A stretch of DNA of 64,000 nt from Mediterranea massiliensis (GCA_015060695.1 SUYA01000004.1:124001-188000); one strand, 5' to 3'; positions 1 through 7,818 are shown, counted from the stretch's first letter. Numbers and translations: made by a program. The notes: generated by a model not told the origin, from the letters alone.

Positions 1-23
1 TCTCAGAAGTTTTTTCGTGATTT

Positions 24-149
24 TAATGTCACAATGTCACACAACTGTTAAAATAGTGGGTTAGTGGGCTGATTATGAGCGCAGAAAATGTTAAACGAAA
101 GTGTGACATTAGGTGTGACATTAGCGTGACATTAGTTTTTTAATGTCAC
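24..149. repeat. Cluster of TAATGTCAC/GTGACATTA motifs in both orientations
   Basis: TAATGTCAC at 24-32 and 141-149, AATGTCAC at 33-40, inverted GTGACATTA at 103-111, 115-123 and 126-134. Confidence 0.8.
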
Positions 150-203
150 ACACTCTTTTTGTTATTGCCCGAAAAACGAGATAACTATCTGTTCCATCAG
201 TAT

Positions 204-307
204 GAAACACTTTGTTTTAAGTGCTTGAAACAGTTTGTTTCGTATGCTGAAACACTCTGTTTCAAGCTGTGAAACACTTTGTTTCTATGGGAGAAACTGA
301 TAGTTTC
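204..307. repeat. Five palindromic 15-bp units (GAAAC-N5-GTTTC-like) at ~22 bp period
   Basis: Units at 204-218, 227-241, 249-263, 271-285, 293-307; starts 23,22,22,22 bp apart; spacers differ in sequence. Confidence 0.9.
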
Positions 308-547
308 GGCGCACAAAACAGACGCAATACAGCCGTTTTGGAGGCTGAAAATGTCAATTTTAACATTTTTAACCGTTTAAACCGGTGAAATGTGGCTTCA
401 TGGCAACTGGTGTAAATTTTATTTTGCAAATTTATAATTATTACTTTTAATGTTTATAAGGCCTGTATTTGAAAATAACGAGTATATTTGTTGGATTCTT
501 TTTTTATTCTATTTAGTTTTGTACCATAATTTACAGATAAGATAAAT

Positions 548-1627
548 TTGTTCTTTTGTATGGCAAAATGGGATAAAATAGAACGATTAACCGATGATGG
601 AAAATTAGTTTCGATGCAAGCTCCTTTAATTATTTCTGCTAGCCGAAGTACTGATATACCTGCATTTTATGCAGATTGGTTTTTTCATAGGTTACAGAAA
701 GGCTATTCTGCATGGAAGAATCCGTTCAATGGAGTGAAGTCATACGTTTCTTATGAAAATATTCGTTTTATAGTGTTTTGGTCAAAGAATCCACGTCCTT
801 TATTGCCGTATCTATCTTTTTTAAAAGAAAGAAATATTAAATGTTATATTCAATATACACTGAATGATTATGAACAAGAGGGATTAGAAAAAGTTCCTTC
901 TCTTTCATATCGCATTGAGACTTTCAAGTTACTTGTAGAACAGCTTGGAAAAGGTGCAGTGATTTGGCGGTTTGATCCCATGATATTAACAGATAATATA
1001 TCTGTAGATGAATTACTATGTAAAGTGCAGAATATTGGCGATCAATTGAAAGATGATACTGAAAAAATGGTTTTTAGCTATGCCGACATAGGTATGTATA
1101 AGAAAGTTAAACATAATCTTGAAGTTAGTGGTATTTCTTATACTGAATGGGAAATAGAGCAAATGAAAGAGTTTGCATATAAACTTTCTGCTATGAATCG
1201 TGAACGTGGTTGGAACTTCGAACTTGCTACATGTGGAGAGAAAATAGATATAACAGAGTATGGAATTCATCATAATCGATGTATCGATGGCGATCTCATT
1301 ACGCGGCTTGCATGGAACGACAAGGATTTGATGGATTTTATGAAAGTAAAGATTGAGACGATTCCTGCTCCGACTTTGTTTGGAAAGCCTGAATTGCCAG
1401 AAGGTGCAATATCTTTGCCTAATCATCATTTCTTTATTAGTACACATAAAAAAGACATAGGACAGCGTAAGTTTTGCGAATGTATGGCTTCTAAAGATAT
1501 AGGAGAATATAATACATGTCCTCACCTATGTGAATACTGCTATGCCAATACAACCAAACGGTTAGCTTATGAAAACTGGCAGTATCATCAAGGAAATAAA
1601 TTTGGAGATACCATAACAGGGAAATAG
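548..1627 (+). CDS. DUF1848 family protein with C-terminal CX3CX2C motif
   Basis: IISASRSTDIPAFYADWFFHRL...VFWSKNPRPLLPYL motifs and C-terminal CPHLCEYCYAN; start may be the internal Met (MAKWDK). Confidence 0.8.
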   Translation: MFFCMAKWDKIERLTDDGKLVSMQAPLIISASRSTDIPAFYADWFFHRLQKGYSAWKNPFNGVKSYVSYENIRFIVFWSKNPRPLLPYLSFLKERNIKCYIQYTLNDYEQEGLEKVPSLSYRIETFKLLVEQLGKGAVIWRFDPMILTDNISVDELLCKVQNIGDQLKDDTEKMVFSYADIGMYKKVKHNLEVSGISYTEWEIEQMKEFAYKLSAMNRERGWNFELATCGEKIDITEYGIHHNRCIDGDLITRLAWNDKDLMDFMKVKIETIPAPTLFGKPELPEGAISLPNHHFFISTHKKDIGQRKFCECMASKDIGEYNTCPHLCEYCYANTTKRLAYENWQYHQGNKFGDTITGK

Positions 1628-1630
1628 AGT

Positions 1631-4279
1631 ATGTCATATGCAGAAGATATACTACAATGTGATAGAATTGATGACATTATTGACTATTGTCACAATGCTT
1701 TGCCTAAAGAATATAGGGGAAAACCATGGACACATCCAGAACTGAATCATGGTAAAGATAGGTTGAATAGCGATGTAGCACTAAATTGTTATGTGTCAGC
1801 ATATGGAGATATGCATGTAGCAAAGTGTCGAGTTGCAATGATGAATTTTCCTTTTAATAATATTCGAGGAAGTATAGAAATAGTTGACTGGGGGTGTGGT
1901 CAAGGTATAGGCTCTGCTACTATAATTGAGATTTTAAGGCAGCATAATCTGTTTCAATGGATTAGAAAAGTCACACTTATTGAGCCTTCTCGTGGTGCTA
2001 TAGAACGAGCTAACGTTAATATTCGTACCCTTACGCGTGGTACAGTTGAAATAGATGTGAAGAATCTTTTTCTTCCTACAAACGATATTCCTGAAGGAGA
2101 AACACTTAATGCTATTGGATATAGATATAATAATGTAATCCATGTTTTTTCAAACATTTTGGATGTTACAACTATTGACTTAGGAGCAATCGCAAGAATG
2201 GTGGCTTCTGCACATGGGAGACATTTTATTTTATGTATCGGTCCTAAGAATGGTGCTGCTTATAGAATTGAAAAGTTTTGTTCTGTTTTTGGAGAACAAA
2301 ACTATTTCAGCCAGATTGATAGTGTACGTTATGCACGCACAAAGAGAACTGGGCATCCTTATACATGCTTTACAAGGTGCTTTGAGTATAATGGTGCATC
2401 AATTGACCTTAACAAATTGACTTTAGTAGGTAAGGAACAAGATGTGATATATGATGAATATGACTTACGTTTACTGATACAAAACAATGTGTTATCGCCT
2501 AAAAAAGCAAGAGTAGCATTGCGGTTACAGAATATTTTGTCTGTAGATGATGTAATGTATATTGATGCTGTAATTAATGAGGTAGTAGTTGATTTTATTA
2601 TTGTTAGGCCAAACAAAGGGGTACTTCTTTTTAATATATTTGAGGAAAACCTTAAAGATTGTACGATTTCAAATAATAAAAAAGAAATAACTATTAATGG
2701 ACATAAATATCAATCGCCCATTGATATAATAAATCTTTGTCAATCTAGTATTAAGGATTGCATAGAAGAACTTTTGATGAGCACGATAGAGAATAGCAAG
2801 AACTTTAGTCTTATCAAAAAGGCTGTTGTATTCTCAGAAAACACTCAAAAAGAGGTAATGAATATCTTAGGATATAAAAATAATAATGTTAACTTCACAT
2901 TTATTTTCGGTAAGGAACTAATAGAAAATAAAGATGTATCACAAAATTTATATACTACAATAGGTTTCCTTTATAATAATAATGCTTTTGATGACGTAGT
3001 GAAAAGAAAATTGGCCAAGATAATATCTCCATCTTGGCATTTCTATCAAGAAGGACGTATTGATATGCAACCGATTGGTGTACAGAAACGATTATCGGAA
3101 AGCAGTATGACACAACAAAAAATTAGTGGAGTTGCAGGCTCTGGAAAAACTCAAGTTTTAGCATTTAGAGCGGTAAATGCCATGAAAAGAACCGGAGGTG
3201 ATGTTTTGGTGTTAACCTATAATATTACTTTAGCTAATTACTTAAAGCTTCGGCTATCTGAAATTAGAGAAGATTTCTCTTGGGAAAAAATAGACATTTA
3301 TCCTTATCATCAGTTTTTTAGGATACGCGCTGCAGAATGTCAGTTACATGTGGAATTTAGTTCATATGAAAATGAGACTTTTTTTGATAATGCTAGAGAT
3401 TATAAAAAGTATTCAGCTATTTTTATTGATGAGGTACAAGATTTTACAACAGAATGGCTTCACATTATCATACGGAATTTTCTTCTTGAACCAGATGGTG
3501 AACTAGTAGTGTTTGGAGATCCCAAACAAAATTTATATCACCGACCTTTGGATGTAAATGGTGATATTCGTATAGGTATAATTCGTGGAGAATGGAATCG
3601 AAAATTAACAAACAGTCGAAGATTTACTAATCCACGTCTTTCAGATCTTGCGACTGCTTTTCAAACAAAATTTATGACAACTTTGCCCACCGATAATATA
3701 GCTATAGATAATAAATTACCGAATTTACTTAATTTCCAAATTCTAAATTATATTGATCTTCGTCAAAATAATACTTTGGATGCCATAGTTGACAATATAA
3801 TTAATATCATTAATAATGACAATAATGAAGCAAGAGATTTTGTTGTGCTTGCTTCATCAACCAAATTACTTCGCAATATTGACTTTAGTTATCGTCAAGC
3901 AACAAAAGAGCAAACAGAAATAACCTTTATTTCAACCGAAGTATTAGATCGTTTAAAGCAAATACATAGGATTACTGATCAAAAGCCTGTTAATTGGAAA
4001 TTTAATAGAGATTTTGAAGCAATTGAGCGAACAAGAAAACAATTGTTTACTACTGATAAGCGTTGCTTGAAACTTTCTACTATACAAAGCTTCAAAGGTT
4101 GGGAGTCTCCTTCTGTTATTGTTATTCTTGAAAGTGACTTGGCATTACATAATACGGCATACCGTCCCATGTCTCCTCAAACTATATATACGGCGATAAC
4201 TCGTGCAAGGGAAAATTTGTATATTCTAAATATTGGGAATGATTCTTATCACAATTTTTTCTACAATCAATCTATATGA
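1631..4279 (+). CDS. Multidomain protein: N-terminal SAM methyltransferase-like, central NERD-like, C-terminal UvrD-like SF1 helicase
   Basis: Methyltransferase motif I-like VDWGCGQGIGSATI; Walker A GVAGSGKTQ; Walker B IFIDEVQDF; FGDPKQNLY; motif VI YTAITRARENLYI. Confidence 0.8.
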   Translation: MSYAEDILQCDRIDDIIDYCHNALPKEYRGKPWTHPELNHGKDRLNSDVALNCYVSAYGDMHVAKCRVAMMNFPFNNIRGSIEIVDWGCGQGIGSATIIEILRQHNLFQWIRKVTLIEPSRGAIERANVNIRTLTRGTVEIDVKNLFLPTNDIPEGETLNAIGYRYNNVIHVFSNILDVTTIDLGAIARMVASAHGRHFILCIGPKNGAAYRIEKFCSVFGEQNYFSQIDSVRYARTKRTGHPYTCFTRCFEYNGASIDLNKLTLVGKEQDVIYDEYDLRLLIQNNVLSPKKARVALRLQNILSVDDVMYIDAVINEVVVDFIIVRPNKGVLLFNIFEENLKDCTISNNKKEITINGHKYQSPIDIINLCQSSIKDCIEELLMSTIENSKNFSLIKKAVVFSENTQKEVMNILGYKNNNVNFTFIFGKELIENKDVSQNLYTTIGFLYNNNAFDDVVKRKLAKIISPSWHFYQEGRIDMQPIGVQKRLSESSMTQQKISGVAGSGKTQVLAFRAVNAMKRTGGDVLVLTYNITLANYLKLRLSEIREDFSWEKIDIYPYHQFFRIRAAECQLHVEFSSYENETFFDNARDYKKYSAIFIDEVQDFTTEWLHIIIRNFLLEPDGELVVFGDPKQNLYHRPLDVNGDIRIGIIRGEWNRKLTNSRRFTNPRLSDLATAFQTKFMTTLPTDNIAIDNKLPNLLNFQILNYIDLRQNNTLDAIVDNIINIINNDNNEARDFVVLASSTKLLRNIDFSYRQATKEQTEITFISTEVLDRLKQIHRITDQKPVNWKFNRDFEAIERTRKQLFTTDKRCLKLSTIQSFKGWESPSVIVILESDLALHNTAYRPMSPQTIYTAITRARENLYILNIGNDSYHNFFYNQSI

Positions 4280-4461
4280 ATAATTTTACAACAATAGAAA
4301 AATATGCAATCATAAAAGTATTGTCACACGTTATGAAAGCTGACGGCATTATTCATCCTAAAGAAGAGGAATATATGAATCATATATACAACGAATTTTC
4401 CATAACAATCAATGATTTAGAAGATATTTCTAATATTAATGATATCACTATTGTCCACTAA
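4276..4461 (+). pseudogene. Truncated TerB-like (tellurite resistance B fold) protein
   Basis: IKVLSHVMKADGIIHPKEEEYMNHIYNEF resembles TerB N-terminal half; ORF overlaps helicase stop by 4 nt and ends beside an IS relic. Confidence 0.5.
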
Positions 4462-4473
4462 AAAAGTGGACGA

Positions 4474-5205
4474 TTAAAAATTAAATAAACTTGGTTCACT
4501 AGAACCGAATCGTTCATTGACATTGTTGATATTTGATTTGTCGAAGAGGTCTCTCAAATGAGTTTTATCAGTAAGTGAGATTCCGATTATTTGCAGGATT
4601 TCATAAACCGACCGTTCGAGTTCCAGATCGTGCTTTAAATTACTACTAAGTAGTAAGTAATTATGACACAATAGATATGTGTTCTTACGGCATTCTCGCT
4701 TGTTTCCTAAAAATTATTGATTTTGAGGTGATGCTTGAGTCATTTGAAGAACAACTCTACACTCCATCGGTTACGATAAAGTTCTGCTACCACAAGTGAA
4801 GGAAGTTTAAAATCGTTTGTCAGAAAGACAAATTCACGTTTCTGTTCTTCATCAAAATAAATGACTCTTCTTAGCGGAATCGGATAATCTTTATAGCTTT
4901 TATAATTGGTAAACTCAATGATTGACTCCGATAAAACGTTCTTCGGAAGTCTCCGTTACCAAAAGATTTGTTTGCACTTAAGATTCTTTTTGGCACGAAC
5001 TACAAAGGTCGCTTCTATCTGTTCAATGTTGAACAAATTGTCGAAGTCGTTATAGCCTCTATCAAAGATATAGTAAGCACCTTTCTTGTAGGGTATTTTA
5101 GGTATCATCATCATATCATGGGTTGATACTGTAATAATATAGAAGTGCGCAGGTGCCTGTACTTCAATATTATATAGTGTGTGAACGTTGATTCCGCCCT
5201 AACAA
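4474..5205 (-). pseudogene. IS4-family transposase remnant (C-terminal part, frameshift and in-frame stops)
   Basis: Minus-strand translation contains HDMMMIPKIPYKKGAYYIFDRGYNDFDNLFNIEQIEATFVVRAKKN...LVVAELYRNRWSVELFFK and ELERSVYEILQIIGISLTDKTHLRDLF, interrupted by stops; N-terminus missing. Confidence 0.85.
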
Positions 5206-5296
5206 ATTAAATATCAATCATTTTAAAAAACTATTTCGATTTCTATTGGACATTTATGAGTTAATATATATATTTGCATTTATAACCTCAGTTTAT

Positions 5297-6529
5297 ATGA
5301 ATAGTATAGATTCTCTTTTAGCAATAGACCGACATGTTTCCGAGATAATTAAGGAAATATATGATAATCCGGATTGGAAAAGCTATGTGGATGAAAGACT
5401 ACAATTCAGACAATATACTATTCTTGAAGATGAGAATGAATCATTGGATCAACTGATTCAATGGTACATGAACAAGAAAAGTAAACGAGTACGATATGCA
5501 GGAACTAAACTAAGGAAAGCGTTCTTGACTCTACCTGCAGTTGAGCAAAGAAAAGTTGGATTAGCGCTTCTTACCGGTAGTATGAGTGATACTGAATGGA
5601 TATGTAAACGTCTTAATTATTACAAACCATCCCTGAATGAAGATTGGATTATTAATTGGCATCCATGCTATGCTGATGCGATAGAAGATTGTTGGAATAA
5701 GTATCATGGAATATCTTGTGGGAAATTAATGATCCAATTTCTCAATGAAGAAACTGTGTATAAACATATTGATGAACTGACCGATTTAGAACTTTATTTC
5801 GGTTTATGTCGAAGATTTATTAACGCACCATGGTTTAAGTTAGATATTGAAAAACTAAAAAACTGCACATATATCAATGCCTACCTATATATTATGTCGA
5901 AAACCTCTCAGGGAATTTCTGTGGAAGAGGCTAAGTTGCTTCTTTATCAATGGATAGCAGTATTGATGGTGCATGATGGAAAAAGCCAACGAAAACTAAC
6001 AAAAGAGAATATCTTTTGGAGTTATAGGAGTATGAAATATAGAGTGATAAATGCTTGGGGAATAGACACAGCTTTATATTATCTATTATGCATGAATCAT
6101 ACAAATGTTGTAATGGACTTTCTAAAATGGGATGACTTAATATGTAGGGAATTTTATAATGAAACAGAATATGGCATAGATAGTGAATTTGACGAAGAAA
6201 AATTTAGAGAAGTTATAATTAGGAATTTCCCCAAAGATATGAACTATCTATTAAATATAAATACAAGTTATTACGAATATATATCTACTCCAGGTCAACC
6301 TTATACAAAACCGAGATTGTACCCCGGTTTTGAAAGTGTAGGAAACGATATTCCTATGTATCTTCATTGCTGTCAGCCAGAACTTAAACCAACTATTTAT
6401 CCTGAAACAACAATATATCGAAATATAACGAAAGAAGAATACAACGAAATACTGAATAATAATCCAAATATAAGAAATATGGTTGAAACACTTAATCTAT
6501 CTTTAATAGATAAGGATTCTAAAAAATAA
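5297..6529 (+). CDS. Hypothetical protein (no recognised domain)
   Basis: Long uninterrupted ORF (5246-6529); first ATG-started form MNSIDSLLAIDRHV at 5297. Confidence 0.7.
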   Translation: MNSIDSLLAIDRHVSEIIKEIYDNPDWKSYVDERLQFRQYTILEDENESLDQLIQWYMNKKSKRVRYAGTKLRKAFLTLPAVEQRKVGLALLTGSMSDTEWICKRLNYYKPSLNEDWIINWHPCYADAIEDCWNKYHGISCGKLMIQFLNEETVYKHIDELTDLELYFGLCRRFINAPWFKLDIEKLKNCTYINAYLYIMSKTSQGISVEEAKLLLYQWIAVLMVHDGKSQRKLTKENIFWSYRSMKYRVINAWGIDTALYYLLCMNHTNVVMDFLKWDDLICREFYNETEYGIDSEFDEEKFREVIIRNFPKDMNYLLNINTSYYEYISTPGQPYTKPRLYPGFESVGNDIPMYLHCCQPELKPTIYPETTIYRNITKEEYNEILNNNPNIRNMVETLNLSLIDKDSKK

Positions 6530-6627
6530 TCGTAATGATAGAAGCAATAATTATATTTCTATTAACCTATTGGCGGAATTAAGTACGCACTAAATTAATT
6601 CCGCCAGTAAGTATAATAATAAAAAAC

Positions 6628-7063
6628 ATGAAAGATAGTCTATCATCGTTGGAACGATTCGTACAGGTTCAAGAGCTGATGTACCCAATCGCATTGGATG
6701 AAGTGAGGAATGGAAGGAAGCGTGGGCATTGGATATGGTACATCTTTCCGCAACTGAAGGGATTGGAAATGAGTGAGAATTCTTAATAATTATGGTATTG
6801 ATGGTATAGAGGAGGCAAGGGCTTATTTGAATCATCCGCTTCTTGGGGCAAGGTTACGGGAGATTACTTCGGCTTTCTTGGCTTTGAAAGGAAAAAGTGC
6901 AGTAGGTGTGTTCGGCCATTTGGATGCGATGAAGGTTTGTTCGTGTATGACGTTGTTTAATGAGGTGGCGGATGATGATTTGTTCCGAAAGGTGCTTGAC
7001 CGCTATTATAATGGGGTGGCGGATGAAAAGACATTGGAGATTTTTGGAAAGTACAGACTTTGA
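6628..7063 (+). pseudogene. DUF1810 family protein, frameshifted
   Basis: Frame 1 MKDSLSSLERFVQVQELMYPIALDEVRNGRKRGHWIWYIFPQLKGLEMSENS* (6628-6786), continued in another frame by YGIDGIEEARAYLNHPLLGARLREIT...SCMTLFNEVADDDLFRKVLDRYYNG. Confidence 0.8.
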
Positions 7064-7249
7064 AAGTGCTATCCGATTGGCGGTTTCATTAAGGGGTGAT
7101 GCTGATACGATGGGAGCTATTGCCGGAGGTATTGCGAAGGATTACTATGGGGGTGTGCCAAAATATATCAGTACGGAAGTGCTGAAACGGTTACCGATTG
7201 AGCTTATTGATGTAATGCAGATGTTTTATCGGAAGTTTGTGGGAAAATA
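7064..7249 (+). pseudogene. ADP-ribosylglycohydrolase C-terminal fragment
   Basis: FESAIRLAVSLRGDADTMGAIAGGIAKDYYGGVPKYI matches the GDxDTxxAIxGxIAxAYYG motif; rest of the gene absent. Confidence 0.75.
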
Positions 7250-7443
7250 ATGGGGTAAACCATGCTGTGGCTGGTATTAATGCCTCAATATTTGTATAAG
7301 AAATATTATTTTTTTTGAACTTTTTAGTCTGCTTATTGGTTTTATCAATAGACCGATAGATTTTATCGGTTGGTAGGGTATGAATATACGGCTATCTTTG
7401 CAGCAAAGAAAGAGAAAATGTTTAATTGATAAAAATAATAATT

Positions 7444-7818
7444 ATGGCTACAAAGTTTTATAAATGTGCCCACTGTGGCAATGTGATAGTGAAAATGGTT
7501 GATTCGGGTGTTCCTGTGGTGTGCTGCGGAGAGAAGATGCAAGAGTTGGTACCCAATACGGTGGAGGCCAGTGGCGAAAAGCATATCCCTTTTGTGACTC
7601 AGTTGGAGGATAATAAGTTGAAAATTGAGGTGGGTAGTGTACATCATCCCATGCTTCCTGAACATCACATCGCCTTTATTTATGTGGAAACAGAGAATGG
7701 CGGTATTCATGTGAATCTGAAGGATAAACCGGAAGCTATTGTTGCATTAGGCGATGAAAAGGCGGTGGCGGTGTATGAATACTGCAACTTGCACGGATTG
7801 TGGAAGGTGGATATGTAA
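7444..7818 (+). CDS. Desulfoferrodoxin / superoxide reductase
   Basis: MATKFYKCAHCGNVIVKMVDSG...CCGEKM; EKHIPFV; EHHIAFIYV; CNLHGLWK; promoter-like TATCTTTG upstream. Confidence 0.93.
   Translation: MATKFYKCAHCGNVIVKMVDSGVPVVCCGEKMQELVPNTVEASGEKHIPFVTQLEDNKLKIEVGSVHHPMLPEHHIAFIYVETENGGIHVNLKDKPEAIVALGDEKAVAVYEYCNLHGLWKVDM

Follow-up and report, generated by a model that had tools for sequence, protein, structure and literature searches.

Near the beginning of a 64,000-nucleotide stretch of Mediterranea massiliensis DNA (GCA_015060695.1 SUYA01000004.1:124001-188000; hereafter the window), three open reading frames found by ORF calling lie on the same strand. The locus raises the question of whether the three genes belong together and, if so, what kind of system they form; the first-pass annotation had proposed a coupled operon with a role in defence or nucleic-acid processing. 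The coupling is borne out by the 3-nt gap between the first two genes, the 4-nt ATGA overlap between the second and third, and a gene order that recurs in relatives. The features are as follows.

560..1627, + strand: DUF1848 gene, 355 aa from the ATG at 560; a TTG at 548 is also open
1631..4279, + strand: gene for an 882-aa fusion of a methyltransferase (MT), a degenerate NERD and an SF1 (UvrD-type) helicase, starting 3 nt downstream of DUF1848
1631..2425, + strand: class I SAM methyltransferase domain of the fusion (residues 1-265), predicted from the motifs GxMHxxK, DWGCGQG, LIEPS and FSNILD
2492..2830, + strand: NERD-like domain of the fusion (about residues 288-400), matched by PADLOC C3a187; E-x-K lost
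3083..4270, + strand: SF1 helicase core of the fusion, with intact motifs GVAGSGKT, DEVQD, GDPKQN, STIQSFKGWE and YTAITRA
4276..4461, + strand: TerB-like ORF, 61 aa (PF05099, E of 2e-5), with a 4-nt ATGA overlap with the fusion gene
4443..5215, no strand assigned: stretch read as a degraded insertion-sequence-like remnant, with the end ...TTGTCCACTAAAAAAGTGGAC, truncating TerB

Pfam, PADLOC and NCBIfam together identify DUF1848, an SF1 UvrD-type helicase (Pfam E of 6e-10 in the 882-aa protein), a NERD+UvrD architecture and TerB in the window. The first protein matches PF08902 (E of 5e-88), and its start is placed at the ATG at 560 by alignment with homologues, the open frame itself spanning 548-1627. 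Both gene 1 and gene 2 retain their full length, and dN/dS is ~0.1 against L018, L019 and L021, a figure that applies to gene 2 (MT-helicase) only; the operon of the window has therefore been maintained until recently. The third gene has fared less well. Intact TerB homologues are 101 aa long and align with two ADGxIHPKE repeats; the window copy keeps ~57 of the 101 codons and one repeat, and then reads through into the insertion to a stop. Nucleotide homology to L021 ends at 4445, where the insertion-like stretch starts. The end of this putative remnant has other copies elsewhere in the same genome; a Pfam search with one of its fragments did not confirm a transposase. Because TerB is truncated, the window copy of the operon may be impaired. 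A DUF1810 pseudogene also lies in the vicinity and, with the insertion-like remnant, agrees with the degraded surroundings described at first pass. An array of palindromes upstream was considered as an operator and rejected, as it is part of a ~380-nt dispersed repeat with at least seven other copies. No known RNA elements were found in positions 1-7500 of the window.

The DUF1848 protein had been annotated as a putative Fe-S protein. It carries a CxxxCxxC motif at its C-terminus (C320, C324 and C327), and Cys 225, 241, 306, 308, 320, 324 and 327 are invariant in two sets of 47 and 22 DUF1848 sequences. In the AF2 model (pLDDT 92, pTM 0.91) the C-terminus runs from a strand through the CxxxCxxC loop into a helix. 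When the DUF1848 profile was compared with radical-SAM proteins of the spore-photoproduct-lyase (SPL)-like group, the unpermuted profile matched at the cysteine motif only (P of 3e-6). The permuted profile, with the C-terminal segment placed first, gave one collinear alignment of 145 columns (P of 2e-8), and the alignment of a doubled profile crossed the junction (P of 1e-7). As controls, 20 column-shuffled profiles reached a P of 0.06 at best, and the MT and helicase profiles gave values of 0.09 and above. A circular permutation of DUF1848 is thus shown computationally at the profile level. Foldseek gave weak barrel-like or radical-SAM matches (E of 1e-3, TM of 0.28) and nothing beyond these against the PDB and viral structures; weak matches are expected of a permuted protein, since Foldseek keeps the chain order. 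DUF1848 probably represents a radical-SAM enzyme of the spore-photoproduct-lyase type in circularly permuted form, and the invariant motif and the profile match support the first-pass assignment, with a predicted cluster. After permutation, the profile match to SPL-like proteins (PA0069 type) takes in the cysteine loop and some of the barrel, but in DUF1848 the CxxxCxxC motif is C-terminal rather than N-terminal and is accompanied by four further invariant cysteines. As a radical-SAM enzyme, the protein would presumably be sensitive to O2.

The second protein was described at first pass as a methyltransferase-helicase fusion in a set with TerB, an architecture that Pfam, PADLOC and the family alignment uphold. 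The MT motifs derive from an alignment of 20 family members, and DWGCGQG and LIEPS are those of class I SAM methyltransferases. Methyltransf_31 is matched by 12 of the 20 (Pfam, best E of 7e-6); the window copy alone matches only Methyltransf_23 (E of 0.02), short of the Pfam cut-off. Structural neighbours of the MT domain include RNA, small-molecule and DNA methyltransferases. In the AF2 model of the 882-aa protein (whole-protein pLDDT of 55) this domain, mostly at 70-90, is the sole reasonably confident part; because confidence is low elsewhere, matches to Schlafen and UvrD structures were not counted as evidence. PADLOC C3a187 ('NERD+UvrD') covers residues 288-867 (E of 2e-35). The SF1 motifs of this NERD-like/SF1 helicase region are intact, but its NERD domain is not an intact nuclease: the active-site E-x-K reads N-I-F in the window and N/H-x-C/F in MT-linked relatives, and is degenerate in all of the aligned MT-linked relatives of the same architecture (type A, below). 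The free-standing NERD-helicases L007 and L009 retain EVK. An active NERD nuclease was ruled out on the loss of E-x-K; the domain is predicted to be nuclease-dead, and the helicase of the fusion would be a translocase lacking nuclease activity.

The distribution of the gene set is patchy, in line with the first-pass reading: among 394 genomes of the order 14 had any match, and among 400 genomes of the family 20 did. Close relatives share 76-83% identity (L017-L021) and distant relatives about 36% (L059/L004 and the viral contigs L041/L042), and in both DUF1848 lies upstream of MT-helicase wherever the contig extends that far. The same gene order is found in L018, L019, L021, L043, L045, L046, L049, L050 and L059, and this recurrence across loci argues that the operon is not a product of chance. 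TerB follows MT-helicase in L017, L018, L019, L021, L043, L045, L046, L049, L050, L059 and L060. The third gene is thus TerB-like here, as first annotated, but it is truncated in the window and was not detected in the relatives L047, L048 and L041, and TerB is therefore an accessory. It may be a small accessory regulator, probably metal-sensing.

What DUF1848 accompanies is the MT domain. The first-pass annotation had held that a failure of DUF1848 and the fusion to co-occur in other genomes would speak against it. Of the 39 MT genes in the fetched loci, 33 have DUF1848 no more than 1.5 kb away, four have it farther off in the locus and two lack it, a count biased by its inclusion of loci that were found through DUF1848. 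A family-level search with the fusion protein placed DUF1848 next to MT in all 17 genomes whose match included MT; it was not adjacent in the three helicase-only matches. Nor does it lie within 1.5 kb of any of eight MT-less NERD-SF1 helicases in the fetched loci, so that the partnership first proposed holds for the MT domain of the fusion but not for its helicase or for TerB. In L202, DUF1848, MT and LRR repeats occupy a single open frame, a natural fusion in a draft genome where the loss of a stop codon could be a sequencing error. The pairwise identities of DUF1848 and MT are uncorrelated (rho of -0.07, 17 loci), as illustrated by L057 (82% for DUF1848 against 29% for MT) and L020 (83% for the MT-helicase part, 61% for DUF1848). 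This independence indicates that DUF1848 has been exchanged between systems. The gene set is therefore conserved and mobile, with DUF1848 linked to the MT domain and not to helicases in general. Most short DUF1848s, from other families of the phylum and from phages, stand alone in varied contexts. A different methyltransferase gene precedes the short DUF1848 in L124 and L126 (4-nt overlap) and adjoins it in L174.

The helicase is one of several exchangeable C-terminal modules of MT. It belongs to the set in type A, the arrangement of the window (MT, pseudo-NERD SF1 helicase and TerB), and to this extent its first-pass listing as a set member stands. In type B (L052-L057, L061, L143, L148 and L156) MT is joined to an SF2 helicase that resembles DpdF (PADLOC E down to 5e-80) and PsyrT (E of 8e-55), together with a coiled-coil gene, and in type C (L140 and L147) to LRR_5 repeats, in part with Sel1 repeats. 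L058 has a stand-alone MT followed by an AlbA_2/HATPase gene. In type D (L133, L152, L062 and L200) MT is preceded by an SF1 helicase encoded separately and by a neighbour gene, which in L152 encodes an ADP-ribosyltransferase/glycohydrolase protein (PF22546, E of 1e-32). Type E (L130 and L132-L139 except L133) has a NERD gene, an SF1 helicase, an uncharacterised gene and DUF1848 as separate neighbours; the NERD gene of L130 shows E-F-K and a weak CheR-type MT match. Type F (L153) is a single 1650-aa protein, beside DUF1848, in which NERD and SF1 helicase are combined with a weak Rsm22-like MT match.

AlkB and SPL each repair nucleic acid by direct reversal; AlkB needs O2 and SPL has an O2-sensitive Fe-S cluster. 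In L226 an AlkB-type dioxygenase lies 2 nt before the series MT, DpdF-type helicase and coiled coil, and DUF1848 is missing; AlkB here occupies the DUF1848 position. In L061 AlkB, DUF1848 and MT-helicase are consecutive genes. An MT relative lies 10 nt from AlkB in L184 (Moraxella plasmid AP031476), and AlkB is 0.9 kb from DUF1848 in L186 (Planktothrix). The AlkB proteins of L226, L061 and L184 match PF13532 (E of 1e-31 to 1e-33) and contain HxD and RxNxTFR. In the ~2 Mb of fetched loci, a profile built from these three found AlkB at no further locus except L186, and as the genes of L223 and L011 are identical with those of L226 and L061, the association comprises four independent loci. Neither DUF1848 nor AlkB was found within the fetched stretch at the MT loci L062, L201 and L227. 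On plasmids, MT relatives were limited to the Moraxella pair, and an MT search in the family of genome G863 gave no further locus. AlkB differs from DUF1848 in having an unrelated fold and in its dependence on O2, and the two may be functionally equivalent.

A defence context for the gene set, as suggested at first pass, appears to be well supported by individual neighbours. These are HsdS/HsdR (L020), GajB-like, HsdR and GmrSD (L021), HsdR and GmrSD (viral contig L162), T5orf172 (L045), AlbA_2 (L019), HsdM/HsdS (L061), an OLD-like ATPase (L057) and an AbiL-like gene (L155); in L060 a DUF1016/YhcG nuclease gene is inserted within the operon. Several further neighbours were scanned for defence genes without a match.

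By its parts, the closest described system is Shango, an anti-phage operon of three genes that encode a TerB-like protein, an ATPase and a DEAD/DEAH helicase (PMC10250203). Both couple a TerB-like protein with a helicase in a three-gene operon, but the operon of the window has no ATPase gene, has an SF1 rather than a DEAD/DEAH helicase, and adds an MT domain and DUF1848; its TerB has no match in PADLOC, and it is not a member. Among UvrD-type defence helicases, the SF1 core is related to GajB of Gabija (PADLOC E of 3e-10); here, however, it shares one polypeptide with a methyltransferase and a dead NERD, and Gabija was ruled out by the absence of a GajA-like gene from the operon. Membership of DRT was ruled out likewise, with no reverse transcriptase among the three operon proteins or in the next ORF. 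Homologous NERD-helicase and DUF1848 genes are already associated with defence in the PADLOC models C3a187, RTasNERD-Hel and RTasDUF1848, but these are separate models, and the C3a187 match begins at residue 288 and excludes MT. Type B loci have a helicase like those of Dpd (DpdF) and PsyrT behind the same MT domain, a comparison by helicase alone, whereas the system in the window has an SF1 helicase. No description of DUF1848 or of the gene set was found in a literature search that most subscription papers lay outside. Taken together, these results leave the first-pass reading as a whole partly supported.

The constant pair of MT with DUF1848 or AlkB, the exchangeable targeting modules, the patchy distribution and the defence neighbours lead us to read the operon as a mobile, modular unit of defence type, in which MT and DUF1848 would write and process nucleic-acid methyl groups, with the targeting provided by the variable module. 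We regard this reading as evenly poised between right and wrong. The class I MT domain would methylate nucleic acid; on that substrate, DUF1848 would remove the methyl group or process it further, or would do so with a matching lesion, and would thereby play the part of the AlkB dioxygenase in the sister locus. The C-terminal module, which in the window comprises an SF1 translocase/helicase and a dead NERD, may recognize, open and present invading or damaged nucleic acid. We infer nucleic acid as the substrate, the direction of the chemistry (an eraser or a second writer) and the anti-phage outcome. A narrower version, in which MT with its exchangeable targeting modules is the methyl writer and DUF1848 is the eraser or processor, an O2-independent, permuted radical-SAM counterpart that would serve anaerobes in the place that AlkB has in other bacteria, is put forward only tentatively.

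Part of the same evidence would suit a nucleic-acid repair cassette that protects the host genome and is not phage-specific, with DUF1848 reversing a lesion in the manner of SPL or AlkB, the UvrD-like helicase opening the site and MT acting as a repair or regulatory enzyme. The SPL-like profile match, the replacement of DUF1848 by AlkB and the UvrD type of the SF1 helicase agree with such a role, and the short DUF1848s that stand alone, some of them beside umuC-like genes, fit general repair and speak against defence. A cassette of this kind is nevertheless rather unlikely, given the rarity of the set, its repeated placement among restriction-modification and Abi genes, and the loci in which LRR/Sel1 repeats replace the helicase or ADP-ribosyltransferase proteins accompany it. 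It is also unlikely that the methyl group is elaborated by DUF1848 (or AlkB) into a larger self-mark, with the helicase discriminating unmarked DNA as in modification-restriction systems: two-step chemistry would suit MT with a radical-SAM enzyme or dioxygenase, and L021 and L162 have type I restriction-modification and GmrSD-like genes next to them, but the type A protein has no active nuclease and none of the restriction genes recurs at every locus.

The pairing of a writer with an eraser-like gene would equally be expected of an abortive or toxin-antidote system, in which invasion would set off MT-helicase as a toxic methyl writer, with DUF1848 or AlkB as the antidote eraser. The PsyrT match of the sister-locus SF2 module points the same way; L201, L062 and L227, which have the MT module and no adjacent eraser, argue against it, and we consider it quite unlikely. 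That a mobile island merely happens to pass on unrelated accessory genes together, as the degraded surroundings and the insertion-like remnant might suggest, is highly improbable and already contradicted by the data, since the gene order is kept in close (76-83% identity) and distant (about 36%) relatives, almost every MT locus has DUF1848 next to MT, a natural fusion exists and purifying selection is seen.

If the reading as a mobile defence-type operon is correct, DUF1848, a widespread family, would gain a role, and radical-SAM chemistry would be tied to a bacterial immune module built on a helicase. The substitution by AlkB predicts that the two enzymes would share a substrate and act on it by oxygen-dependent and oxygen-independent chemistry, respectively.

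The window holds three further features outside the operon:
1-380, non-coding repeat element
5246-6529, intact ORF of 427 aa
6590-7250, broken DUF1810 gene (E = 2e-29)

The repeat element contains four GAAACANNNTGTTTC palindromes spaced 22-23 nt apart together with GTGTGACATTAG repeats, and is present in at least seven further copies in the same genome (~74-85% identity). The 427-aa ORF has no match in Pfam; weak relatives lie 3' of the operon in L018 (26%), a close relative of the window operon, and 5' of DUF1848 in L054 (22%), where the methyltransferase (MT) is joined to a DpdF/PsyrT-like SF2 helicase. The fragment that follows the broken DUF1810 gene resembles, by eye, an ADP-ribosylglycohydrolase.

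In L060 (3973-8544) a DUF1016/YhcG nuclease gene is inserted between DUF1848 and the MT-helicase gene, and the start regions of DUF1848 and MT appear broken. DUF1848 also occurs as a stand-alone gene on viral contigs (L164, L165, L173, L178, L179 and L180), some of them very large (up to 376 kb). At five loci from another family of the same phylum (L160, L093, L094, L096 and L097), genes read by eye as umuC-like adjoin or lie near a short DUF1848. On the Moraxella plasmid AP031476.1 (L184), a gene annotated as a viperin-family antiviral radical SAM protein lies ~3 kb from the MT-AlkB pair.

Four loci (L152, L133, L062 and L200) encode a separate SF1 helicase, a second protein, which in L152 is an ADP-ribosyltransferase/glycohydrolase (PF22546/PF22545), and an MT-family protein. 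This set is a sister system.
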